From Candidatus Acetothermia bacterium (GTDB lineage: Bacteria > Bipolaricaulota > Bipolaricaulia > RBG-16-55-9 > JANLFV01), in assembly GCA_024653345.1 (NCBI GenBank), contig JANLFV010000001.1:1-64000 (forward strand): a DNA stretch of 64,000 nt. Reading direction: 5' to 3'. Shown piece by piece: positions 50,747 to 52,319 of this stretch (the stretch's first letter is position 1; each line of letters starts with the position of its first letter). Below the pieces are notes generated by a model. It saw only the letters and a program-made list of their open reading frames with translations. It searched no databases and was not told the DNA's origin. Both the position numbers and the translations under genes were made by a program.

Positions 50747-51310
50747 CTAGAGCTTGCAGACCTGGGGGACCTCGAAGTTCTTGACCACCAGCTTGTTCGC
50801 GGAGCAGATCTCGCCCCTGTCGGGCACAATCCCGCGAGCTTCGATGAGGATCTCCACGGCGAAGGCCATCCCGCTCAGCGACTTGAGCGTATTGCAGATG
50901 TAGGCGAAGTCGACGAGCACGTTCTCCTCACCCAGCGCGGAGATCCGACTCCCCTTGATCTGCTTGGAGATGTCCTCAGCCCGGGTGATGACAGGGATGA
51001 AGATCACCTCCTCCCGGCCGCGGAACCTCCGGGAGATAGCGCGGATGATCCGCACGGTCCGCTTGACCTGGATCAGTCGGCCCCGGGGCATCTCCACCTG
51101 GAGATCGAAGTAGACGGTGAACTTCCGCTCCGGGCGGCGGAGCTTGACGAGCGGGTCACCGATCTCGATCTGGAGCGGGCATTCTGCGGCGGAGATCTCC
51201 CCGATCGCCGGTTGGGCCAGCCCCGTCGAGCCCCGGATTGCGAGCGTCCCCGCGAGCAGGCTGAGGCCCTTGAGGAACTCTCGCCGATCGAGTCCCCTGT
51301 CCTTGGACAT
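50747..51310 (-). CDS. Tat-exported hypothetical protein
   Basis: Encodes 187 residues. Twin-arginine signal DRREFLKGLSLLAGTLA at residues 8-24, then a soluble domain of about 150 residues with alternating hydrophobic strands and three cysteines, including the C-terminal VCKL. No family recognised. ATG 51310 follows AAGGGGGA; upstream in-frame starts would put the signal too far inside. Tat export implies prefolding or a cofactor. Confidence 0.72.
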   Translation of the reverse strand: MSKDRGLDRREFLKGLSLLAGTLAIRGSTGLAQPAIGEISAAECPLQIEIGDPLVKLRRPERKFTVYFDLQVEMPRGRLIQVKRTVRIIRAISRRFRGREEVIFIPVITRAEDISKQIKGSRISALGEENVLVDFAYICNTLKSLSGMAFAVEILIEARGIVPDRGEICSANKLVVKNFEVPQVCKL

Positions 51311-51438
51311 ACCACATTCCCCCTTCTCATTAGCCTTAGGCATAGGCGTTGATTCTAGGCTGAGGCTAAGGCCGCGCCGGCTAAGGCCCAAGGAAGGGAG
51401 AGAGCGGTGGAAGTGATCTCGATCACTTAGGGGGGTGA

Positions 51439-51478
51439 GTCTAGGGCGGCTGCCAAGGTGGGAGCAGCCGCCCTAGAC
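51439..51478 (-). terminator. 15-bp perfect hairpin, possible end of the tRNA-like RNA
   Basis: Arms at 51439-51453 and 51464-51478 (GTCTAGGGCGGCTGC and its exact complement) with a ten-base loop. It directly abuts the tRNA-like element on its 3' side. The bases beyond it (TCACCCCCC) lack a T-run, so it may be a terminator, a processing signal or a stabilising 3' end. Confidence 0.5.
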
Positions 51479-51624
51479 GGCTTGGCTCATACGGATTCGA
51501 ACCGTGTCCGCTCTAGCTGCTGGGGAAAAATCCGCTGCTCCGGAGGCTGGGGAGAGCAGCGGCAAAACCCTGGCAGCCGGTGGGCTCTTCCCCCACCGCG
51601 GATGCACCATGCGCGAGCCAAGCC
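51479..51624 (-). ncRNA. candidate structured RNA with tRNA-like closing helix and T-arm
   Basis: 146 bases that fold almost completely by eye. The ends pair perfectly over ten bases (GGCTTGGCTC / GAGCCAAGCC). Before the 3' strand lies a T-arm: ACGG-TTCGAAT-CCGT, preceded by GGAC as in tmRNA and tRNA. After the 5' strand comes a 12-base segment containing GG, as in a D-loop, then helix CCGC / GCGG. Inside are two hairpins: GGTGGG / CCCACC (loop of about seven) and a longer one with GCTGC / GCAGC outside and CCGCTGCTC / GAGCAGCGG inside. There is no anticodon loop with U33 and no tmRNA tag frame. A possible -10 (TAAAAT, 51691-51686) lies about 60 bases upstream. Confidence 0.5.
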
Positions 51625-51770
51625 CTACAGGGGTGTGAGAAGGCCCTGATCTCCCATCTCTCAAACAGCAGTTCAAGCCACCAGCATTTTACCGCCGGCC
51701 CGGGGCCGTCTGACACCGCCCTGGCATGGCCGGAAGGTTTGAGCTATTCTCGATCGAGAGAGGGGAGAGG

Positions 51771-52319
51771 ATGGGATCAGCATTGGACGAGGAAGCCCTG
51801 CGTGTGATCCGGGCCCAACTCGGCCGCGAGCCGCACGGGGTGCTGGGGATCGAGCGGCGCTGCCGATGGGGCTACCCGCAAGTGATCAAGGTCTACTCTC
51901 TATTTATGAGGGAGGGCTCAAAGATCGAGCCCTTCCCCACGCTCTTCTGGCTCACTTGCCCCTTCCTAATCGAGCAGTTGTCTGATCTGGAAGGACGCGG
52001 CTACATCAAGGAGTTGGAGCGGCTCATCGCCGAGGACGGAGGACTGAGGGAGGAGTATCGCCGAGACCATCGGGACTACCTCGCCGAGCGCTGGGCCACT
52101 CTTAGCCCTGAGGACTGGGCCCTGGCGGAGCGGTTAGGCCTAGCTCGAGCGTTGAGGGAGCGCGGGATCGGCGGCATCGCCGACTGGGATAAGGTGAAGT
52201 GCCTCCACCTCCACTATGCCCACCACCTGGCAAGGGGGAGCGCCATCGGCCGCTGGATCGAAAAGCACTTCGCTCTCGAGGAATGCCCCGCAAGCCAGGT
52301 CCGCTGCGCCGGGCTCTAG
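51771..52319 (+). CDS. DUF501 protein
   Basis: Encodes 182 residues with DUF501 features: RRCRWGYPQVIKVY near 30, PFPTLFWLTCPFLIEQLSDLEGRGYI in pattern near 60, and KCLHLHYAHHLARG near 158; cysteines and histidines there may bind metal. In actinobacteria this family often sits by cell-division and enolase genes; function unknown. ATG 51771 follows GGGGAGAGG; an upstream ATG (51726) lacks a ribosome site. Confidence 0.85.
   Translation: MGSALDEEALRVIRAQLGREPHGVLGIERRCRWGYPQVIKVYSLFMREGSKIEPFPTLFWLTCPFLIEQLSDLEGRGYIKELERLIAEDGGLREEYRRDHRDYLAERWATLSPEDWALAERLGLARALRERGIGGIADWDKVKCLHLHYAHHLARGSAIGRWIEKHFALEECPASQVRCAGL

Follow-up and report, generated by a model that had tools for sequence, protein, structure and literature searches.

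The window, a stretch of 64,000 nucleotides from a Candidatus Acetothermia bacterium, carries at positions 51479–51624 an RNA element that is read on the minus strand, from 51624 to 51479, and that is flanked by a divergent DUF501 gene (51726–52319, plus strand) and a same-strand ORF without a Pfam match (50747–51391, minus strand). As an earlier note on this DNA had described, the ends of the element pair exactly over ten bases (GGCTTGGCTC/GAGCCAAGCC), a T-arm with the loop TTCGAAT follows GGAC (GGAC-ACGG-TTCGAAT-CCGT on the minus strand), and an inner helix, UCCGC/GCGGA in full, together with two larger hairpins accounts for most of the remaining bases. Where that note had placed a GG-containing segment at the site of a D-loop, a correction is needed: the element does have a D-arm-like hairpin, GCGCAUGGUGC (51604–51614). 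The features listed below rest on the predicted fold, on a second copy of the element in the same genome (the C5 paralog), and on alignments of relatives, chiefly A1 (52 loci) and A4 (59 sequences); type B is a related subtype described further on.

51479–51624, minus strand: whole tRNA-like RNA element, a type A paralog (fold z = −4.6; match to covariance model R2 at 51479–51619; paralog at G000:C5:2718-2874).
51615–51624, minus strand: acceptor-like outer helix, 5′ strand GGCUUGGCUC (fold; two compensatory changes relative to the C5 paralog, U-A to C-G and G-C to A-U).
51479–51488, minus strand: acceptor-like outer helix, 3′ strand GAGCCAAGCC (fold; C5 paralog comparison).
51604–51614, minus strand: D-arm-like hairpin GCGCAUGGUGC with GG in its loop (homologous to GGCAYGGUGCC of type B; helix 2 of A4, with double changes at 4/4 pairs).
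51598–51602, minus strand: inner helix, 5′ strand UCCGC, partner 51507–51511 (fold; helix 3 of A4).
51507–51511, minus strand: inner helix, 3′ strand GCGGA (fold; A4).
51579–51597, minus strand: hairpin GGUGGG-GGAAGAG-CCCACC, at the place of the anticodon-arm-like GGG-UUUACAG-CCC of type B (fold; helix 4 of A4).
51515–51578, minus strand: module arm GGCUGC-CA-GGG-UUUUG-[stem-loop]-AUUUUU-CCC-CA-GCAGCU (A1, 52 loci; covariation 0.576 versus 0.153 ± 0.015 shuffled).
51563–51567, minus strand: U-rich internal loop, 5′ side UUUUG (UUUU invariant in 52/52 loci).
51526–51531, minus strand: U-rich internal loop, 3′ side AUUUUU (purines next to the two U runs exchange together, G..A in 42 rows and A..G in 6).
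51542–51546, minus strand: anti-Shine-Dalgarno core CCUCC in the apical loop (the 16S rRNA of the source genome has the 3′ end GGCTGGATCACCTCCTTTCTA).
51491–51505, minus strand: T-arm ACGG-UUCGAAU-CCGU (helix 7 of A4, pairing in 100% of cells and with double changes at 3/4 pairs; GUUCRANUC in most of the 59 rows).
51439–51478, minus strand: long hairpin directly 3′ of the element (retained in the C5 paralog with compensatory changes).

The element has a minimum free energy of −78.2 kcal/mol (z = −4.6), a value reached by 0 of 200 dinucleotide shuffles. The opposite strand folds as strongly, and z alone therefore cannot assign the strand. The paired positions of the module alignment, read on the minus strand, hold 39 G-U against 6 A-C combinations, which identifies the minus strand as the RNA strand and rules out a plus-strand RNA at this locus. 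Because the hairpin at 51439–51478 has no T-run, it is not a classical terminator; the flanks of the window copy showed neither promoter nor terminator consensus, and we infer that this copy is transcribed. The Rfam and ARAGORN searches that the earlier note had proposed returned no known family at the element: there was no ARAGORN match and no Rfam match at gathering thresholds, including RF00005, while relaxed Rfam thresholds gave chance matches and ARAGORN with introns permitted gave noise. A segment at 51578–51598, GGTGGGGGAAGAGCCCACCGG, is similar enough to part of the RNase P RNA of the same phylum to have produced weak 21-nt BLAST matches in relatives, but a relationship was discarded, since these matches, where they could be checked, fall inside true RNase P genes; the source genome has its own RNase P gene.

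The second copy, 92% identical, lies at G000:C5:2718-2874. Between it and the window copy there are three compensatory double changes in the outer helix and the arm and three further changes to or from G-U, with pairing broken at one loop-closing pair and at one deleted base. BLAST against relatives gave many partial matches centered on the central arm, which is the best-conserved part of the element within the window's order. What the aligned relatives share is a module composed of a covarying stem, GGG, UUUU-R, CC, a covarying hairpin, GG-R-UUUUU, CCC, and the other stem strand, and its covariation falls to ≤0.10 when the partners are slid. Outside the phylum the search was by the exact module pattern, and a scan of 84,980 species genomes with that pattern found 50 loci, 46 of them in entries titled Bipolaricaulota, Acetothermia, or Fraserbacteria and the other four in an "uncultured bacterium" (CAJXGD) that apparently corresponds to G002, a genome of the window's order. 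R1, a covariance model built on this module, found two to eight copies per genome in 19 of 19 genomes belonging to the order. In the remaining 81 genomes from the phylum it gave a single match in each of two, and both matches are type B. Two patterns searched for viral copies found none. Minimal members of about 75 nt, type D (L060, L086, and L054), consist of a TATAAT box, the module hairpin with an ACCUC(C) loop, an end helix, and a T-rich tail. In a sister species, a c-di-GMP-I-GGC riboswitch (L005 1711-1793, minus strand; 69 bits) adjoins a type-A-like copy.

Type B is a subtype of ∼360 nt that usually occurs once per genome and that, in the window's order, is placed after a histidine kinase/response regulator pair; in L083 it has its own TATAAT box and terminator, and in the source genome it is found at G000:C4:23786-23930. 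Its center has a tRNA-like fold, in which a short acceptor-like helix is followed by the D-like hairpin GGCAYGGUGCC and a joining helix, then by the hairpin GGG-UUUACAG-CCC, the module arm (loop CUGCCAACCUCCUUC), and a T-arm GUUCRANUC. Rfam gave no match to type B for any of the bacterial families tested. A covariance model of this center, R2, built from 16 sequences with the window element excluded, matches 51479–51619 on the minus strand end to end (73.3 bits, E = 2.2e-14) and the C5 paralog at 76 bits. R2 detects the family in 57 of 100 phylum genomes, including four families outside the order, and a broader model, R3, does so in 72 of 100 at E ≤ 1e-4, counts in which an absence may reflect the incompleteness of a metagenome-assembled genome. 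At ≥50 bits, R3 reaches 53 genomes and all nine Bipolaricaulota families sampled; R3 matches of less than about 110 nt could be of another kind, and no conclusion here rests on them. The specificity controls, real tRNAs and tmRNA in the sampled loci, score at most 8.7 bits (tRNAs) and 5.8 bits (true tmRNA) with R2.

The paired substitutions in relatives that the earlier note had proposed as a check are abundant: across the 59 sequences of A4, 32 of 36 pairs show double changes. The A4 covariation is 0.400, compared with 0.138 ± 0.006 shuffled and ≤0.084 with partners slid; such counts ignore kinship and are inflated by related rows, an effect that the slid controls do not show, and although this alignment was itself fitted to the model, A1 and A3, which were aligned independently, give the same picture. 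On this comparative sequence evidence, the window element is a real structured non-coding RNA of the minus strand and a paralog of type B, and the conclusion that the two form one previously undescribed RNA family, absent from Rfam and spread across Bipolaricaulota, is well supported. The suggestion of a new tRNA-like small RNA thus stands, with the acceptor-like helix, D-like hairpin, and T-arm all conserved through compensatory changes. The companion suggestion of a very reduced tmRNA relative falls, since the genome carries an ordinary tmRNA elsewhere (G000:C28:55947-56305, 188.6 bits). What the earlier reading had passed over is the central arm, with its anti-Shine-Dalgarno loop and its U-rich loop, along with the paralogs and the phylum-wide spread.

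The note's remark that both a tag frame and an anticodon loop are lacking also holds. The 48-codon frame of the window copy does not survive in the C5 paralog, where a 1-nt deletion breaks it, and the corresponding hairpin loop of the window copy is GGAAGAG, without U33. A coding reading of the family was rejected on the broken window frame and on the type-B ORF, which stops early in 2 of 15 members, has a pN/pS of 0.5–1.0, and reaches significant length in one only. This ORF opens in most type-B members at a conserved AUG in GATGAYCGCTCA (L083 from 1291 onward, and 14 other type-B loci) and runs through the fold; the distance from the AUG to the anti-Shine-Dalgarno sequence keeps one frame in 13 of 15 members despite seven lengths, and the frame continues to GGTTGCTAA in about 10 of 15. 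A dual function, as RNA and as ORF, is conceivable from these sequences.

Several further tRNA-like features were seen. The GGG-UUUACAG-CCC hairpin of type B (e.g., L083 1339-1351) has a 7-nt loop with U at the U33 position, as in an anticodon loop; the loop is UUUACAR in most type-B members, UUCAUAG (with CAU) in family f8, and UUUCCGA in a second paralog of family f7, and is missing in several members of family f3. The second paralog of f7 (L221 1025-1160, L222 993-1128, L223 988-1119, L225 1061-1198, and L226 1062-1188) has the same T-arm and D-like hairpin, and its arm often ends in a GGGGAUG-like loop in place of the anti-Shine-Dalgarno sequence, partly complementary to the CCCCUCC loop of f7 type B; it is conceivable from this complementarity that the two form a kissing RNA pair. 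A compact 81-nt tRNA-like RNA that ARAGORN does not call (L224 1075-1155), with a 7-bp end helix, a T-arm, and a UUUCCGG loop, could be an unusual tRNA-Gly or else a minimal member of the family.

The feature that bears most directly on function is the apical loop of the central arm. In type B the loop contains CCUCC in 43 of 43 cases (f1–f9, five family groups), extended to ACCUCC in 27 and to the full octamer ACCUCCUU in 25, and CCUCC is far rarer in shuffled loops. The stems of the type-B arm vary freely while the loop is retained. The 16S rRNA of the source genome ends in GGCTGGATCACCTCCTTTCTA, with the tail ...CACCUCCUUUCUA. In most families the conserved stretch stops at ACCUCCUU and its neighbors vary (UGCCA, UUUG, UUUC, AUUA), which is the pattern expected for Shine-Dalgarno pairing. 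Among copies of the module, CCUCC lies in the loop or ≤75 nt upstream in 51 of 52, usually as part of at least 7 nt of anti-Shine-Dalgarno sequence. The paralogs of the order carry this sequence in the loop or, mostly, 49–75 nt upstream of the module, with up to 11 nt identical to 16S (ATCACCTCCTT), and in most type-A copies of other genera it lies upstream of the fold, outside the loop. In the window copy and its C5 twin the loop sequence is reduced to CCUCC, followed in the window copy by GG, a weak anti-Shine-Dalgarno sequence. An exposed anti-Shine-Dalgarno sequence is the most strongly conserved loop sequence of the family besides the T-loop, and this argues for pairing with Shine-Dalgarno sites.

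The second conspicuous feature of the arm is the U-rich internal loop, UUUU opposite UUUUU between invariant G-C pairs, which is nearly invariant across the 52 loci. It is limited to the window's order, with a reduced form in f8 and f9, and is missing from f6 and f7; it therefore cannot be the ancestral function and is probably a later addition.

We propose, at a probability of roughly 0.55, that the family consists of trans-acting small RNAs built on a tRNA-like scaffold, the loop of which pairs with Shine-Dalgarno sites, and that the U-rich loop of the arm was acquired within the order. Since the family exposes a copy of the ribosome's mRNA-binding sequence, it probably regulates protein synthesis. 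The acceptor-like helix, D-like hairpin, and T-arm would form a tRNA-like core, probably joined by an elbow contact between the T-loop and the GG, from which the extra arm would project and display the core CCUCC, usually as ACCUCC or ACCUCCUU. This loop would pair in trans with the Shine-Dalgarno sequences of chosen mRNAs and keep ribosomes off them, while the core would act as a stable scaffold and might offer a handle to a tRNA-binding enzyme (RNase P, PNPase, or an enzyme that modifies tRNA). Within the window's order the number of copies rose to two to eight per genome, and the arm probably gained an ENE-type U-rich loop, for which an A-rich strand or a protein may be the ligand. Several family members are flanked by TATAAT boxes and terminators, the genes downstream lie on either strand and differ between subtypes, and subtypes occupy orthologous places across genera; judged by this sequence context, the members that could be assessed are independent genes and not leaders. 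Some observations count against the small-RNA reading: Hfq was found in 2 of 20 genomes, so that a usual sRNA chaperone is missing in most; the window copy combines a weak anti-Shine-Dalgarno sequence with flanks lacking promoter and terminator consensus; and most type-A copies of other genera carry the sequence upstream of the fold. Aminoacylation looks unlikely, as no CCA is encoded and the acceptor-like helix of the window copy measures 10 bp, against about 5 bp in the ancestral type.

Other functions can be drawn from the same parts. The U-rich loop could make the element a bacterial ENE that would form a triple helix with an oligo(A) tail or an A-rich strand, clamping it and protecting the RNA or a partner mRNA: ENEs require a U-rich internal loop flanked by G-C pairs, with which they clamp A-rich RNA (PMC12501189; PMC11411715), and in distant copies of our element the flanking pairs change while the U runs persist. 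In those papers, however, ENEs come solely from viruses and eukaryotes, the loop is absent from f6 and f7, and no conserved A-rich partner was seen near the element and no conserved A-tract in the flanks inspected, so that the resemblance is a lead and not evidence of membership; we regard the function as rather unlikely. Slightly less probable is a tether resembling Y RNA, in which the tRNA-like core would recruit PNPase or another tRNA-binding enzyme and the extra arm would select substrates such as rRNA fragments or mRNA. YrlA RNAs of 90–150 nt do join a long end helix to an acceptor/D/T-arm-like domain that binds PNPase (PMC8394870), but a TROVE/Ro60 protein was found in 0 of 60 relatives, with a positive Deinobacterium control, and neither the element nor type B matched an Rfam Y RNA family.

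A sequence equal to the 16S tail could also attract a protein instead of an mRNA, and the loop, which across most f1–f6 and f9 members is identical to the 16S tail core ACCUCCUU, might then act as a decoy that titrates a nuclease or a ribosome-assembly factor such as Era. Such factors read the upstream bases AUC of AUCACCUCC, which are not conserved in type B, where conservation ends at the octamer that pairs with Shine-Dalgarno sites, and we consider a decoy unlikely, somewhat more so than a tether. A cis-acting leader or attenuator, suggested by the same-strand ORF at 50747–51391 downstream of the window copy, is very unlikely and was rejected, since downstream genes occur in both orientations and differ between subtypes and several members have their own promoter and terminator. 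Least probable is a short mobile repeat (MITE) or a tRNA/tmRNA gene remnant left by an integrating element: the ten-base inverted ends, the two copies at 92% identity in one genome, and a T-arm half typical of attachment-site remnants recall such origins, but no target-site duplication was seen at the element, subtypes sit at conserved places across genera, the tmRNA elsewhere in the genome is intact, and compensatory evolution across a phylum is unexpected for a remnant; this origin, too, was rejected.

Small RNAs on a tRNA-like scaffold that pair with Shine-Dalgarno sites remain our preferred reading. If the pairing is true, they offer a simple, testable example of a tRNA mimic that controls translation in bacteria mostly without detectable Hfq, and the single-copy ancestor with its expanded paralogs provides a natural series for the study of how sRNA families originate. 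A fuller picture, which we put forward tentatively and hold to be rather unlikely, is that of a phylum-wide tRNA-like RNA acting in translation initiation, with an elbow that would be read by the tRNA machinery and a loop that would imitate the 16S tail at Shine-Dalgarno sites; in one order this RNA would also have acquired an ENE-type triple-helix element, the first from bacteria, and diversified into paralogous regulators.

Among known systems, YrlA shares the long end-to-end helix, the acceptor/D/T-arm-like domain, and a similar size, but the present family lacks a Ro60/Rsr protein in its genomes and has an additional arm with an anti-Shine-Dalgarno loop as well as paralog families. The tRNA-like domain of YrlA is bound by PNPase and also acted on by tRNA-modifying enzymes (PMC8394870), and by analogy the core of our element may be a scaffold or handle. 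The α-r14/cuckoo sRNAs of Alphaproteobacteria (NfeR1) similarly expose an ultraconserved anti-Shine-Dalgarno motif, CCUCCUCCC, in hairpin loops on divergent stems (PMC10746234), but they are three simple hairpins without a tRNA-like fold in another phylum, and no homology or Rfam match to them was found. The ENEs of PAN RNA, MALAT1, and plant retrotransposons share a stem with a U-rich internal loop between G-C pairs, whereas the loop described here, a candidate for a triple helix, is bacterial, has no A-rich partner in sight, and belongs to the window's order alone, apart from the reduced forms. The literature searched held nothing relevant on a bacterial ENE, a tRNA-like anti-Shine-Dalgarno RNA, or an sRNA in this phylum. 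tmRNA (RF00023) likewise arranges an acceptor-type helix and a T-arm around an inserted domain, but the element has no tag frame, no TTCGACGG D-loop, and no RF00023 match, and the type-B reading frame is not retained in all members. Like tRNA (RF00005), the family has a canonical 7-nt T-loop UUCRANU on a G-C closed stem, a D-like hairpin with GG, and an end helix, but this helix is about 5 or 10 bp long, the extra arm is large, there is no CCA, and an anticodon loop is not conserved, the 7-nt UUUACAG being present in many type-B members and missing in some. Small RNAs that act by base pairing, as proposed here, are already known; what is new is the RNA family and its combination of parts. To our knowledge, a tRNA-like fold joined to an anti-Shine-Dalgarno loop is known nowhere else, and here it occurs in each of the nine families sampled from an almost uncultured phylum, with no Rfam entry, and extends in one order to an ENE-like U-rich loop.
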